DNA of 64,000 bases from Defluviimonas salinarum (GTDB lineage: Bacteria; Pseudomonadota; Alphaproteobacteria; Rhodobacterales; Rhodobacteraceae). A program made the position numbers and the translations under genes. Below are positions 4,375 through 9,326 of this stretch, piece by piece. The stretch covers positions 62,001 through 126,000 of the forward strand of contig NZ_JAPDOG010000004.1 in NCBI RefSeq assembly GCF_026013545.1, given 5' to 3'. Positions within the stretch are counted from its first letter, which is position 1. Every line of letters begins with the position of its first letter. Below the pieces are notes generated by a model, which did no database searches, had not been told where the DNA came from, and saw nothing but the letters and a program-made list of their open reading frames with translations.

Positions 4375-5136
4375 ATGGCGCTCCCCGATTTCTCCATGCG
4401 TCAGCTCTTGGAAGCTGGCGTTCACTACGGCCACCAGACCCAGCGCTGGAACCCGCGGATGTCGGAATACATCTACGGCGACCGCAACGGCATCCACATC
4501 ATCGACCTGACGCAGACGGTGCCGATGCTCGACGCCGCGCTCAACGTCATCCGTGAGACCGTGGCCAAGGGCGGCCGCATCCTCTTCGTCGGCACCAAGC
4601 GTCAGGCTGCCAAGCCGATCGCCGATGCCGCGGAAAAGTGCGCGCAGTACTACATGAACCACCGCTGGCTCGGCGGCACGCTGACGAACTGGAAGACCGT
4701 GTCCCAGTCGATCGCGCGCCTCAAGCAGATCGACGAGGTTCTGGGTTCGGGCGCCGAGGGCCTGACCAAGAAAGAGCGTCTGGGCATGGAGCGCGAGCAG
4801 GCGAAACTCCAGGCCTCGCTCGGCGGCATCCGCGAGATGGGCGGCGTTCCCGACCTTCTCTTCGTGATCGACGTGAACAAGGAAGACCTCGCCATCCTCG
4901 AAGCGCAGAAGCTCGGGATCCCGGTCGTCGCTATCGTCGACACCAACTGCTCGCCCAAGGGCGTTGACTACGTCATCCCGGGCAACGACGACGCCGCCCG
5001 CGCGATCGCGCTCTACTGCGATCTCGTGAGCCGCGCCGCGCTTGACGGCATGTCCGCCCAGATGGGCGCTGCCGGCATCGACATCGGTGCGCTCGACGAG
5101 GCGCCGGCCGAGGAAACGGTCGCCGAAGAGGCCTGA
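4375..5136 (+). CDS. rpsB: 30S ribosomal protein S2
   Basis: 253 residues, normal for alphaproteobacterial S2. Diagnostic segments are [17 protein letters not shown] at the N-terminus, [25 protein letters not shown], and [15 protein letters not shown] with [12 protein letters not shown]. The protein binds the 30S subunit and helps hold S1 and the mRNA. The start is ATG 4375 (MALPDF) behind GGAAAGGAA; an ATG two codons upstream sits too close to the ribosome site. It forms the classical operon with tsf downstream, with a hairpin between the two genes. Confidence 0.97.
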
Positions 5137-5185
5137 CCGGACCCGGTGGGGCGCGTTCGAGCGTCCTGTCATCCTACCTTCATCG

Positions 5186-5204
5186 GGCGGGGATACTCCC
5201 CGCC
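5186..5204 (+). promoter_or_regulatory. rpsB-tsf intergenic hairpin (possible attenuator)
   Basis: GGCGGGGA (5186-5193), a 3-base loop, and TCCCCGCC (5197-5204) form a perfect stem in the 102-base gap between rpsB and tsf. No T run follows, so it would reduce rather than stop read-through, or protect the rpsB end. The gap-plus-hairpin layout resembles the partial terminator known between these genes in other bacteria. Confidence 0.45.
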
Positions 5205-5238
5205 TGACCCATTGAGAAATCTTCGAAGGAGAGCCGAC

Positions 5239-6147
5239 ATGGCGATCACCGCACAAATGGTGAAAGAGCTGCGCGAGTCGACCGGCGCGGGCATGATGGA
5301 CGCCAAGAAGGCGCTGACCGAGACGAATGGCGACATGGAAGCCGCCGTCGACTGGCTGCGCACCAAGGGCCTGGCCAAGGCCGCCAAGAAGGCCGACCGC
5401 GTCGCCGCCGAGGGCCTGATCGGCGTCGCCGTCAAGGACGGCCGTGGCGTCGCCGTCGAGATCAACTCGGAAACCGACTTCGTCGCCAAGAACGCCGACT
5501 TCCAGGACATGGTCCGCGACATCACCAACATCGCGCTGCAGACCGGCGAGACGCTGGAGGTTCTGAAGGCCACCCATCTGAACGGCAAGCCGGTCGAAGA
5601 CGTCCTCACCGACGCGATCGCCCGCATCGGCGAGAACATGACGCTGCGCCGGATGCACGTTCTTGAAGGCGACACGGTCTATACCTACGTCCACTCGGCC
5701 GCTGCCGAGAACATGGGCAAGATCGGCGTTCTCGTTGCTCTGAACGGCCCGAAGGACAAGGCGGAGGCGATCGGCAAGCAGTTCGCCATGCACATCGCCG
5801 CGACCTCGCCGCTCGCGCTGAACGAGGCCGCGCTCGATCCTGCCGTCGTGGAGCGCGAACTCCAGGTCCAGACCCAGAAGGCGCTCGAGGAGAACGCCGC
5901 CTCGGCGAAGCCGAAGCCCGATCAGGTGATCCACAACAACATCATCCCGGGCCGGATGAAGAAGTTCCTCTCTGAAAACACGCTGCTCGGCCAGCAGTTC
6001 GTGATCAACCCGGACGTGACGGTCGAACAGGCCGCCAAGGATGCCGGCGTCGAGATCACCGGCTTTGCCCGCGTCGCGGTGGGCGAGGGCATCGAGAAGG
6101 AAAAGGAAGACTTCGCCGCCGAGGTCGCAAAGACCCGCGGCGCCTGA
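5239..6147 (+). CDS. tsf: Elongation factor Ts
   Basis: 302 residues. The N-terminal UBA-like module [20 protein letters not shown] is conserved. The [12 protein letters not shown] core contains the T-D-F-V motif that contacts EF-Tu and displaces its magnesium. EF-Ts exchanges GDP for GTP on EF-Tu. The start is ATG 5239 behind GAAGGAGAG. It is the second gene of the rpsB-tsf operon and is followed by a strong terminator. Confidence 0.97.
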
Positions 6148-6172
6148 TCCCTCGTCAGGACTTCGTCTCAGG

Positions 6173-6199
6173 AAGGGCCGGGGTAATCCCGGCCCTTTT
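6173..6199 (+). terminator. Rho-independent terminator of rpsB-tsf
   Basis: AAGGGCCGGG (6173-6182), a GTAAT loop and CCCGGCCCTT (6188-6197) form a perfect 10-bp stem whose 3' arm runs into TTTT at 6196-6199. It lies 25 bases after the tsf stop. Confidence 0.85.
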
Positions 6200-6366
6200 G
6201 TCATTTCGGGGAATGCTTGTATCCGGTCAATGACCGGCTTGGCTGGGTCCGGCGGGTGCGAAACACCCGCCGGGCCCGGAACCCGGATTTCCGGGATTTG
6301 GGCTCAAGTCCCGAGGTTCTGGCGGTTTCGGCTCAAGCCCCACCAAATCACCACTCACTGAACCTC
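6200..6366. repeat. Partial or diverged first copy of the tandem structured repeat (unit C)
   Basis: No gene. The segment contains GGCGGGTG-CGAAA-CACCCGCC and other short hairpins. It ends with GAGGTTC (6313-6319) pairing perfectly with GAACCTC (6360-6366), enclosing the sequence ACCACTCAC. The same ACCACTCAC next to the 3' arm of a closing stem occurs 314 and 632 bases further on in units A and B. The closing stem here has different bases that still pair. The 5' part of a full unit would run into tsf, so this copy is truncated or shorter. Confidence 0.6.
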
Positions 6367-6419
6367 GTCACGATGCCGCATCCACCGTGATCGCGCCTGA
6401 CGCAGATCAACTGTGCAGC

Positions 6420-6677
6420 GGGAATCTTCGCGACTTCGGGACGGCATGGGAACAGGATGGGAGACAGGAAGGGCGGCGCCTCCGGTCGATGGAGTCGCCG
6501 CCCTGATGCGCGCCGGCACCTGTTGGGGACATGGACAGGGCGCGCAAAAGTGTCGGACCAGCCTGCCCATGAAAACGACCGGCTGGTCCGCACCCGGTTG
6601 CCCGGCGCTCCCGCTTCCCCCGCAAACGCGGGCTGGTCCTGGGAGCCGTTCCTGGCCAATGCCACCACTCACGGAAC
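6420..6677. repeat. Tandem structured repeat, unit A
   Basis: No gene. Helices in order: a 33-nt hairpin at 6471-6503 (13 pairs, one mismatch); GCGCGC 6508-6513 with GCGCGC 6540-6545 and inner CCTGT/ACAGG; a 10-bp stem 6554-6563 with 6581-6590; CCCGC 6619-6623 with GCGGG 6628-6632; and a closing stem GTTCC 6648-6652 with GGAAC 6673-6677 around TGGC-CAAT-GCCA and CCACTCAC. Every element recurs about 317 bases later in unit B, partly with different but pairing bases. This looks like a structured RNA. Read on the minus strand it would begin at the closing stem and end at the 33-nt hairpin like a terminator. Confidence 0.75.
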
Positions 6678-6733
6678 ATTCCCACGTTGTCCGCTTTCCG
6701 GCTTTTCAGGCTGATTTGAATCAACGGAATTCA

Positions 6734-6995
6734 GGGATTCTCGCTGCGCCGTCGAACCGACACAGATTGAGGGGGCTATAAAAGGGTGGGTGGTACGCCT
6801 CGCCAAGAGGCGTACCACCCGATGTCGCGCCAGCACCTGTTGGGGATGAGGACAGGGCGCGTCTTCGTGTCGAACCTGCCAGATGAGAAAGCATCCGGCA
6901 GGCCCAACTTCCGGTTTCCCGGGCCCCCCATTCCCCCGTAAAAAACGGGCTGGTCCGGGGGAGCAGTTCCTGGCCAATGCCACCACTCACGGAAC
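6734..6995. repeat. Tandem structured repeat, unit B
   Basis: No gene. Counterparts of unit A: a 33-nt hairpin at 6788-6820 with a perfect 14-bp stem; CGCGC 6826-6830 with GCGCG 6857-6861 and inner CCTGT/ACAGG; CCTGCC 6875-6880 with GGCAGG 6897-6902; CCCGT 6935-6939 with ACGGG 6945-6949; and GTTCC 6966-6970 with GGAAC 6991-6995. The last 30 bases are identical to those of unit A. On the minus strand the 33-nt hairpin is followed by ACCCTTTTAT, a terminator-like run. Confidence 0.75.
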
Positions 6996-7151
6996 GAGGA
7001 AGATATTGCAGGTTTACCCAACGTAAGGAAAGTATGGGAATCCATACCCGCCTGAATTGTAACGAAGTCTTGAGCGCAAGCGGTCGAACTGCAAAACCTT
7101 CCGTCTCCAGACCGATCATTGTCCTGCCGTTAGAAACAATGCGGAGCCAGA
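6996..7151. other. Gene-free stretch between the repeat array and the LuxR gene
   Basis: 156 bases, less GC-rich than the surroundings. I see no credible open frame or RNA gene in it. It would hold the 3' untranslated region of the LuxR gene. If the repeats are minus-strand RNAs, it would also hold the promoter of unit B; AATATC lies near the right distance, but no convincing -35 was found. Confidence 0.5.
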
Positions 7152-7919
7152 TCACTCCGGAAGCATGAAGATCTGATTCTGGAACGAGGCCTTCAAGACC
7201 GCCTGGGCTGTGGTCTCGACGTCGAGCGCCTCGCGCGCAAGGCGAAGGTGCTTCTCGACCGTGGCCGGCGTCAGCCCCATGATCGTGGCGATGTCCTGCA
7301 TGGTCTTGCCGTCACCGACCCATTCGAGCGCCTCACGCTGGCGTGGCGTCAGGGCCCGGCGCGACGAGGCGAAGGGCATCGCCGTGATCCGGAGGTGGGT
7401 GATGTTGTTGATGATGGCGATCTCGGAACCGAACTCCTCCCACATGGAGTCGACCTCGAACTGTCGCATGCCGGGCCTGGCGCAAAGACCGATGGCGCCC
7501 TTCGCGCGGACGGAGACGTCCCGAAAGCTGATCGAGTAGCCCGCCCGGATGTCATAGCGGAAGTTCAGATCGACGATCTGCTTCTCGATATCGCTTAGTT
7601 CGCGACTAGCGGCCACCTCGTCGATCAGCCGCCAGGAACACGTTCCTTCATTCGCGGCAGCCCAGTTCACCATCGGAGCGTGATTGAACAGGCCGGATCT
7701 CACGAACAGGTCGAGATACCGCTCGTCGTGATTCGACAGGACGAGGAGGTCGTCGGCATTGCCGAAGGAGGTCGAGGTCCGGAACCGGGTGAAGCCGTAG
7801 AGCAGGCGGTCGAAGCCGTATTCCGCCATCTTGGCGAGATGAAGCGACCAGATCTCCTCGATGGTTTCTGCCTCAATGACCCGTTCCAGATGCGGGATGA
7901 TCGGGGACGGCGGCTTCAT
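7152..7919 (-). CDS. LuxR-family regulator with autoinducer-binding-type N-terminal domain
   Basis: 255 residues. Residues about 20-170 resemble the acyl-homoserine-lactone-binding domain (RLLYGFTRF, YLDLFVRSGLFNHAP, CSW, GAIGLCA). The C-terminal LTPRQREALEWVGDGKTMQDIA with LTPATVEKHLRLAREAL is a GerE-type helix-turn-helix. No luxI-type synthase is visible in the window, so it would be a LuxR solo. The acidic residue normally preceding the conserved Pro of the pocket appears to be Ala (NHAPMV), so the ligand may not be a standard AHL. GGAGGCG precedes the ATG. Confidence 0.88.
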   Translation of the reverse strand: MKPPSPIIPHLERVIEAETIEEIWSLHLAKMAEYGFDRLLYGFTRFRTSTSFGNADDLLVLSNHDERYLDLFVRSGLFNHAPMVNWAAANEGTCSWRLIDEVAASRELSDIEKQIVDLNFRYDIRAGYSISFRDVSVRAKGAIGLCARPGMRQFEVDSMWEEFGSEIAIINNITHLRITAMPFASSRRALTPRQREALEWVGDGKTMQDIATIMGLTPATVEKHLRLAREALDVETTAQAVLKASFQNQIFMLPE

Positions 7920-8141
7920 CAGCGCCTCCGTGCGGAGGTCTGACCAAGGCCGTAGCCGCCTGCGTCCAACGCGGCGGAATGATCACGAACAACCGTGAGT
8001 GTGGCCAACTGAATCAAAGAAGCCATGACACTATCCCCGTTCAAGTTGTGCCATGCCGTCTGAACACTGTCGAGGGGAGCCACTTTTCATTTCACCCGTT
8101 CGTGATACCTAATGTGGCGCACAACCAGAGCGGAGCCTGCC

Positions 8142-9326
8142 ATGACGGATGGACATTGGGACGTAGTGATCGTCGGCGGCGCGGTCACCGGTGCGGCGAC
8201 GGCCTGGTGGCTGCTCGGGATTGCACCCGGCCTGCGGGTCATGGTGGTCGAGAAAGACCCGACCTATGCCCGCGCCGCGACGGCGCTCTCGGTGGCCTCG
8301 GTACGTCAGCAGTTCTCAAATCCCGTGAACGTCGAGATCTCGCGCTTCGGCGCCGCGTTCATCCGCGATTTCGGCGCGCGAATCGGCCCGGAGGGCGGGG
8401 TTCCCTCGCTCGGCCTGAAGGAGAACGGCTACCTGTTCCTGACCGGAACCGAGACGGGGGCCGAGGTGCTCGAGGAGCTGGCCGCGATGCAGCGCGGGCT
8501 CGGAGCGGCGACCGAAGTGCTCGGCCGGGCGGAACTCGCGCGGCGCTATCCGTGGATGCAGTTCGACGATGTGGTCGCCGGCAGCATCGGCGCGCGGGAC
8601 GAGGGCTGGTTCGACAACATGGGATTGCTGAACGGGTTCCGGGCGGGTGCCAGGGCGCGCGGCGCGGTCTTCGTCCATGACCGGGCCGTGGGGCTGGAGC
8701 GGGAGGGCGCACGCGTCACGGCCGCAATGCTCGAAACCGGGGGCAGGGTGTCTGCCGACGCCTTTCTCTGCGCGGCCGGCACCGGCTCGACCGAAATCTG
8801 CGCGATGGCGGGCATTGCGCTGCCAGTCGAGCCGCGCAAGCGCACGGTCTTCGTTGTCGACGCGCCAAACGCCCGGCACGCCGACGCCCCCCTGATCATC
8901 GACCATACCGGGATCTACCTGCGCCCCGAACACGGCACCTGGATCACCGCGACGGTGCCGATCGACGACGGTCCCTGCGACGAGACGGACTGGGAGCCCG
9001 ATCACGCCCAGTTCGAGGACCTGATCTGGCCGCGGCTCTACAACCGGAGCGAGGGCTTCGACGCGGTCAAGGTGATGCGGTTCTGGGTCGGTCACTACGA
9101 TTACAACCGCCTGGATCAGAACGCGATCCTGGGGCGCTGGCCGGGGACCGAGAATTTTCACGTCGCGACCGGCTTTTCCGGGCACGGCCTGCAGCAGGCG
9201 CCCGCGGTGGGACGCGGCATGGCGGAACTGATCCTTACGGGGCGCTACGAGACACTCGACCTCTCGCCGCTCGGGCCGGAGCGCGTGTTGGAGAACCGGC
9301 CCTTCCTCGAACGCGCCGTCGTCTGA
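8142..9326 (+). CDS. FAD-dependent oxidoreductase, D-amino-acid oxidase/glycine oxidase type
   Basis: 394 residues from ATG 8142. The N-terminal dinucleotide-binding loop VVIVGGAVTGAATAWWLL and the C-terminal GFSGHGLQQAPAVGRGMAELI flavin-contact motif define the DAO family (FAD-linked amine/amino-acid oxidases, FOXRED1-like). The protein lacks a signal peptide. The substrate cannot be read from the sequence. An in-frame ATG at 8112 would add 10 residues; the downstream start was chosen for its GGAG and closeness to the conserved fold start. It is divergent from the LuxR gene, so regulation by that protein is possible. Confidence 0.85.
   Translation: MTDGHWDVVIVGGAVTGAATAWWLLGIAPGLRVMVVEKDPTYARAATALSVASVRQQFSNPVNVEISRFGAAFIRDFGARIGPEGGVPSLGLKENGYLFLTGTETGAEVLEELAAMQRGLGAATEVLGRAELARRYPWMQFDDVVAGSIGARDEGWFDNMGLLNGFRAGARARGAVFVHDRAVGLEREGARVTAAMLETGGRVSADAFLCAAGTGSTEICAMAGIALPVEPRKRTVFVVDAPNARHADAPLIIDHTGIYLRPEHGTWITATVPIDDGPCDETDWEPDHAQFEDLIWPRLYNRSEGFDAVKVMRFWVGHYDYNRLDQNAILGRWPGTENFHVATGFSGHGLQQAPAVGRGMAELILTGRYETLDLSPLGPERVLENRPFLERAVV

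Follow-up and report, generated by a model that had tools for sequence, protein, structure and literature searches.

The region between tsf and an orphan luxR-type gene in the window – by which is meant the whole stretch of 64,000 nucleotides analysed here – carries on its minus strand two full copies and one degenerate copy of a structured RNA that is detected in over half of the genomes sampled from the Rhodobacteraceae, a large family of marine and soil bacteria, almost always occupies the same locus and is missing from Rfam 15. The RNA family, its structure, its synteny, its upstream motifs and its complementarity to certain gene starts are all directly observed in the DNA. In the reading favoured here, whose chances we consider evenly balanced, the RNA would be a family-wide trans-acting small RNA (sRNA) with its own promoter and terminator, the C-rich loop of which would act on ribosome-binding sites, the best candidate target being a fadL-type gene. 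Such an RNA makes it possible to test whether an orphan receptor of the quorum-sensing type, an sRNA and import across the outer membrane are connected, and it provides – as far as predicted promoters go – an example of promoter swap following sRNA duplication.

RNA copies in the window

The ordinary full-length copy, a putative sRNA gene here called copy B (6780..6995, minus strand), scores 191 bits over 6815–6995 with R1, a covariance model built from 20 sequences in which both full window copies are included and the third is not; all window scores come from an unfiltered R1 run on positions 5000–8600. Its predicted ends – the 5′ end at about 6995 and the 3′ end in the T-run past the terminator, at about 6780 – are placed by conservation with relatives. 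Copy A (6460..6677, minus strand, 3′ end approximate), recognised by an R1 match of 154 bits over 6498–6677 and by direct repeats, is a second full copy with another upstream region, and copy C (6213..6363, minus strand, starting at 6363; 34.8 bits, E 1.9e-9) is a degenerate third one without the CAUCCCC hairpin. The preliminary description had proposed two full units and a partial one repeating with a spacing of 314–318, an arrangement borne out by the three R1 matches and by direct repeats at that spacing (6509–6563/6826–6880, 6594–6643/6911–6960 and 6641–6677/6959–6995), with a 27-nt direct repeat (6349–6375/6663–6689) marking the partial copy. Among the matching genomes, only three (G000, G369 and G390) hold two R1 matches each, a count from which weaker copies may have been lost through the filters; the tandem arrangement is a local oddity.

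Copy B, read 5′ to 3′ on the minus strand, begins with the hairpin GUUCCGUGAGUGGUGGCAUUGGCCAGGAAC (6966..6995; 6648–6677 in copy A) and continues with a tetraloop hairpin, CCGG-GAAA-CCGG (6911..6922), and a seed hairpin, CGCGCC...CUGUCCUCAUCCCCAACAG...GGCGCG (6826..6861), whose loop CCUCAUCCCCAA (6840..6851) is the proposed pairing seed. It closes with a terminator hairpin followed by UUUU (6788..6820), identified as an inverted repeat with a legible T-run; two-sided changes occur in 11 of the 13 pairs of this helix, helix 8 of the family consensus. The counterpart in copy A is a terminator-like hairpin with a weak T tract (6470..6504, minus strand). These are the two hairpins noted earlier as alike in length and not in sequence, and as inverted repeats they are indeed 93% (copy A) and 100% (copy B) complementary while unlike each other. 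The minus-strand unit proposed at the outset, with a 30-nt stem-loop at its start and a terminator-like hairpin at its end, is supported, as is its reading as a structured RNA. Compared with dinucleotide shuffles, the fold of copy B reaches z −6.75 on the minus strand and −3.74 on the plus strand, and that of copy A −3.31 and −2.15, respectively.

Behind tsf, at about 6175–6204, lies a GC-rich hairpin followed by TTTT, which would stop tsf transcription short of the RNA genes.

Structure and covariation of the RNA family

A MAFFT alignment of 26 copies, mostly from one genus, yields a consensus of eight helices with 93.4% of cells paired; two-sided changes are seen in 28 of its 52 pairs. The 119 two-sided cells compare with 35.4 in shuffles, a value reached by none of 500 shuffles; slid controls were 37–46% paired, and no measure was matched by shuffled or slid versions. 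Paired changes between the window copies had been taken as the mark of a functional RNA, and among homologues, too, covariation stands far above shuffles. For 70 distinct sequences, in an alignment made by the model and hence leaning to its structure, 91.8% of cells are paired, two-sided changes affect 48 of 53 pairs and the covariation score is 0.508 (0.149 shuffled, at most 0.070 slid). As only 12 consensus pairs emerge when 53 diverse copies are aligned by MAFFT alone, this wider count rests on the model-fitted alignment, and the MAFFT-only support for covariation is that of the 26-copy set.

From 5′ to 3′, an ordinary member consists of a 5′ hairpin (GUUCCGUGAGUGGUGGC..GCC..GGAAC), variable helices, often a hairpin with a GNRA-type tetraloop, a long covarying helix, the CAUCCCC-loop hairpin and a terminator hairpin followed by a T-run. 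In Ruegeria, Leisingera and Phaeobacter, the RNA is of a shorter type that – as read from single-sequence folds – has the motif in its last hairpin.

Distribution

A covariance-model search of the family and a comparison with Rfam, both proposed in the preliminary description, have now been carried out. R1 matches 225 of 394 Rhodobacteraceae genomes, a lower bound because its filters lose weak matches and the model misses the divergent copy of G070. That copy (L334) has the 5′ hairpin and a GGTAAGGGATTCC upstream motif, but its E-value of 0.09 is too weak for useful detection by the model. Of 385 genomes sampled class-wide, four match, all of the same family. Rfam 15 has no match anywhere in the window, 6S RNA included, and the sub-threshold matches in 6150–7160 – none of them to 6S RNA – lie well under the gathering score, which agrees with the earlier failure to place the element in any known family.

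When the minus strand of copy B is used as BLAST query, 25 of 61 genomes match at E 0.01. These include 19 of the 21 other genomes of the genus (G011 and G016 being without a match); in other genera it is mostly the 5′ hairpin that is matched, and one match (L031) resembles coding sequence. A scan of named species genomes with a 5′-hairpin pattern returned at least 119 loci. Among the 80 titles listed, nearly all are Rhodobacteraceae or genera of that family (Ruegeria, Leisingera, Shimia, Rhodovulum, Rhodobacter aestuarii and others); the outliers among the matches listed – one Sphingomonadales metagenome-assembled genome (MAG), one Nocardioides record and two Alphaproteobacteria MAGs – are taken to be mislabelled or unplaced.

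fadL as candidate target

According to the mechanism proposed here, an RNA of about 215 nt would be made from its own promoter and ended at its own terminator, a hairpin would hold the CAUCCCC loop single-stranded, and the loop would pair with purine-rich ribosome-binding sites of target mRNAs, thereby blocking their translation. The main candidate among such targets is the mRNA of a fadL-type outer-membrane importer, through GGGAUGAGG, which in this genus and in some others directly precedes the start codon of fadL. Within this genome, the loop complement UUGGGGAUGAGG occurs 31 times with at most one mismatch, compared with 8 times for the reversed control; of the 30 places read, many are inside long open frames, and two at gene starts were followed up, those of an ABC-transporter permease (PF00528) and of the fadL-type gene (PF03349). 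A second fadL-type gene of this genome (L267) is without the site.

Of 18 same-genus genomes with the loop, 15 have the exact word GGGATGA at the start of fadL; of 25 genomes of other genera that have the RNA, 8 do so (9 if G023 is counted). When each genome's own loop is paired with its own fadL start (−40..+10), the mean energy is −18.2 kcal/mol, with 38 of 43 at or below −12, as against −10.1 and 29% for base-shuffled starts; other genera alone give −16.7 and 22/25, as against −10.6 and 35%. No such excess is seen at the starts of tsf (−9.5, shuffled −8.7; 35 starts) or luxR (−11.35, shuffled −11.05; 42 starts) in this set, in which G021 is without a recognised RNA and rpsB yielded no starts.

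It might nevertheless be that the RNA is a real sRNA with other true targets, and that its match to fadL reflects a shared G-rich variant of the Shine–Dalgarno sequence; this is a serious contender, to which we give somewhat less than an even chance. Against it speak the distribution of the exact site, which is present at 23 of 43 fadL starts as opposed to 0/35 for tsf and 1/42 for luxR, and the longer word GTTAGGGATGA, which by eye recurs within the genus amid changing flanks. A further comparison is that of genomes with the RNA and those without a significant match, meaning none at E 0.01 by R1 (for G011 and G016, none by BLAST); a renewed search of the latter to E 10 brought out an evident divergent copy in G070. 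Overall, the site is found in 23/43 and 1/11 genomes, respectively (P 0.015), a difference that supports fadL, with the second figure taking 11 of the 13 fadL-matching genomes and leaving out G027 and G066. In favour of the shared variant, the corresponding figures for independent genera alone are 8/25 and 1/10 and not significant (P 0.23), and one genome, G074, has the site and no detected RNA. When a single standard loop is applied throughout, fadL starts from RNA-bearing genomes of other genera pair at −16.7, those from genomes without the RNA at −14.6 (P 0.18) and those of the Ruegeria type at −10.6 (P 0.00002).

The Ruegeria-type branch also counts on the side of the Shine–Dalgarno explanation. 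Its members, with the loop CCAUCCCCAU, have no site within −40..+10 in any of 17 fadL starts from 15 genomes, and these starts pair at a mean of −10.8 (shuffles −11.4); in one (L306), GGGATGA lies about 40 nt upstream of fadL. Since this branch keeps the RNA, fadL was rejected as a universal target. When genomes are grouped by loop type, the site is counted in 23/36 and 0/7 (P 0.0024), but this scripted count overlooks the site in one of the seven, G023, the start of which was missed, and with G023 included P becomes 0.033 overall and 0.35 for other genera alone. The site is absent from 13 of the 36 genomes with the loop CUCAUCCCC.

These final controls across genera lowered our assessment of an sRNA acting on fadL from fairly probable to evenly balanced. 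The fadL-type importer would still be the best candidate target, the complementarity being good within the genus and suggestive beyond it.

Upstream of fadL, several genera (L247, L249, L251, L275) share a recurring palindrome, CGTCA-N5-TGACG, often in the form ACGTCATTGATTGACG, perhaps a regulator site overlapping a −35 element.

Other candidate targets

Permease starts pair with the loop almost as strongly as fadL starts (−16.2, shuffled −12.2; 18 starts), another point for a shared Shine–Dalgarno variant. As the exact site is confined to one lineage, the energy signal partly reflects G-rich start sites. A GGGGATGA-type site before the start was found only in this genome and three relatives (protein about 93% identical), and the permease was dropped as a target in general; GGGATGA, when counted automatically, stands at 6/18 permease starts, two of which use the ATG within the word as their start codon. 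In this genome (L188, around 1501–1516; G000:C23:11866), TTGGGGATGAGG is found at the permease start codon, with similar words in three close relatives, and the permease may be a lineage-specific second target. The permease start of G018 (L221) contains GGGGGACG, which is complementary to the loop of the second RNA copy of that genome.

In the part of the family in which luxR possesses a leader of its own, a GGGGAU(G) site there might make the gene a second target, subject to feedback. Loop-complementary 8-mers occur in 16 of 59 luxR leaders not behind aroQ, while shuffles average 1.7 with a maximum of 6 over 200 runs. In aroQ–luxR genomes, there is no excess (1/58, shuffles 2.55), and the leader was rejected as a target there. 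Pairing of the 5′ hairpin with the luxR leader was likewise discarded: the match of 9+4 bp seen in the window is not conserved, and the word CACTCACGG is present in one of 130 luxR leaders, that of the window itself.

Conserved elements of the RNA

A structured RNA that binds a ligand or a protein, with tertiary contacts made by its 5′ hairpin and tetraloop and with only a secondary role for mRNA pairing, appears unlikely, though it deserves consideration. It would account for the conservation at the head of the 5′ hairpin, where the first 17 nt are exact in 20 of 26 model-found copies of other genera – more than a simple antisense RNA would need. The same 17 nt are exact in 130 of 140 copies, a figure that overstates conservation because copies were recognised by their 5′ end and loci were fetched with the exact 5′-hairpin pattern. 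This explanation is at odds with the retention of the loop as well: 109 of 140 non-redundant copies contain CATCCCC, 71 of them in the form TCATCCCC and 35 as CCATCCCC, and 123/140 fit a wider loop pattern. The invariance of CAUCCC in the 53-row alignment is partly due to selection, the rows being drawn from copies with a recognised loop. The tetraloop, too, fits a binding role poorly, 61 of the 140 copies being unmatched by the pattern; the others have GAAA (51), GCAA, GAGA or GUAA (18) or other forms (10).

Locus and upstream motifs

The syntenic partner of the RNA is the orphan luxR-type gene (7152..7919, minus strand), which encodes an autoinducer-binding domain (PF03472, E 4.1e-24) and a GerE domain (PF00196, E 2.6e-9); on the other side, the convergent neighbour is an open reading frame (5239..6147, plus strand) that we take to be tsf, for elongation factor Ts. 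The synteny set comprises 147 of 176 loci, 29 with an unrecognised RNA start having been dropped and some places being in twice. In 138 of the 147, the RNA is directly preceded on its own strand by a luxR-type homologue, mostly at 80–250 nt from the RNA start; tsf is downstream and convergent in 132, with rpsB past it in 111, and several of the remaining loci are cut off by the end of the stretch. The luxR gene stands behind aroQ (read from a protein motif) in 58 of 117 non-redundant loci. In a few same-genus genomes (L010, L011, L014), the luxR–RNA spacer contains a lux-box-like inverted repeat, CCTGYCC-N4-GGRCAG.

This arrangement would suit a promoterless 3′-UTR-derived or cis-acting RNA of the luxR transcript, luxR being upstream on the same strand at so short a distance, yet we regard that origin as improbable. 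One argument against it is the consensus of 138 upstream regions, aGGTAaGGAat.Cc..ACTt...tggCA...T...tGTTCC, in which roughly positions −53 to −36 relative to the RNA start form a conserved block. The core of this motif in the window, GTATGGATTCCCATACTT (the GGTAAGGAATCCC motif; 7030..7047, minus strand), lies 35–52 nt before the start of copy B and is its single exact occurrence in the genome. A loose pattern finds the motif in 107 of 139 regions (counted without a shuffled control), a stricter first pattern in 57 of 138. Together with the terminator helix, the conserved motif is seen at the level of sequence and suggests a transcription unit separate from luxR; the neighbouring LuxR protein may control it through this motif. 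A sigma-54 promoter was considered and dropped on inspection by eye.

The other argument against a promoterless RNA comes from four extra copies that bear a different box at a fixed distance. Copies A and C of the window and the second copies in G010 and G018 are without the ordinary motif and instead have a box resembling TTGAT-N4-ATCAA, the FNR consensus, with 1, 2, 1 and 2 mismatches, respectively. In the window, these boxes are TTGATTCAAATCAG upstream of copy A (6711..6724, minus strand) and TTGATCTGCGTCAG upstream of copy C (6397..6410, minus strand, same offset); in all four, the centre is at −40.5, a classical activator position. At that place, every one of the 107 copies bearing the ordinary motif differs from the box by six mismatches or more, and the whole window has two boxes with at most one mismatch. 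Extra tandem copies may thus be under FNR-type control, but a strict rule to that effect is opposed by the extra copy in G004 (L034, on another contig), which bears the ordinary motif. The FNR-type extra copies have diverged loops, AUGUCCCCAA, CUUGUCCCUCAGG and CCCCGUCCCCCG (6418–6677, minus strand, in the window; L009:1817–2056, plus strand; L016:1120–1379, minus strand), which suggests new targets.

That the RNA is a dispersed repeat or mobile element, as the tandem copies in this genome might hint, is extremely improbable, the next-best places in the genome reaching E 0.002 or worse and most loci being syntenic.

Possible role

If the RNA is indeed an sRNA acting on fadL, it could belong to an old family module in which an orphan LuxR receptor would be paired with an sRNA of its own, the sRNA controlling an importer of the FadL type and, in certain lineages, acting on the luxR leader as well. 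In Sinorhizobium meliloti, a FadL homologue helps sense long-chain acyl-homoserine lactones (PMC5977203, in the accessible part of its text, citing Krol and Becker 2014), and by analogy the sRNA would tune the hearing of long-chain signals. The tandem copies would be oxygen-responsive sisters which, after duplication, exchanged their upstream region for an FNR-type one and acquired an altered loop and new targets. We put forward this module as a speculative and rather doubtful extension; the link between FadL and the neighbouring LuxR receptor is attractive and would rest on that analogy. A search of the open literature for FadL, sRNA and Rhodobacteraceae together found no paper, and the sequence words of the RNA led to one unrelated paper.

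Relation to known RNAs

Among alphaproteobacterial RNAs, CcsR1–4 of Rhodobacter sphaeroides and AbcR1/2 of Rhizobiales are trans-acting antisense sRNAs with C-rich unpaired stretches. Like them, the RNA described here occurs as sibling or tandem copies and has a C-rich stretch complementary to purine-rich start sites; unlike them, it is about 215 nt long with several hairpins, holds its CAUCCCC seed in a closed loop, lies at another locus and has no Rfam match. The motif CCUCCUCCC, which we take to be that of the CcsR sRNAs, is found in none of 140 non-redundant copies. The Qrr sRNAs of Vibrio, which are tied to a LuxR protein of a different kind, offer a parallel in that an sRNA is linked to a quorum-sensing regulator with possible feedback; the LuxR proteins differ in kind, and the sequences were set side by side only through the Rfam scans.

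The accessible portions of the open main texts found, including PMC5107571, PMC2864571, PMC7866481 and PMC8625941, do not describe the RNA; supplements and most subscription papers are outside this scope. A transcript at the corresponding locus of Ruegeria pomeroyi DSS-3 has probably been detected already: in the part of Rivers et al. 2016 (PMC4809877) that could be consulted, a 188-nt RNA named 'riboswitch82' is listed against SPO1974, which we match by gene number and size rather than by coordinates. As far as the accessible text of the respective papers goes, SPO1974 is an orphan luxR (PMC3824088) and SPO1973 is aroQ (PMC4334477; PMC10041152). The known RNAs in the same portion of PMC4809877 include a homologue of the cobalamin riboswitch; if riboswitch82 is of that type, the present RNA would differ from it, four Ruegeria loci (R. 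pomeroyi not among them) having given three Rfam matches at E up to 10, none of them to cobalamin. The two share an orphan LuxR neighbour and the aroQ–luxR order seen at many of the loci described here, and their sizes are compatible.
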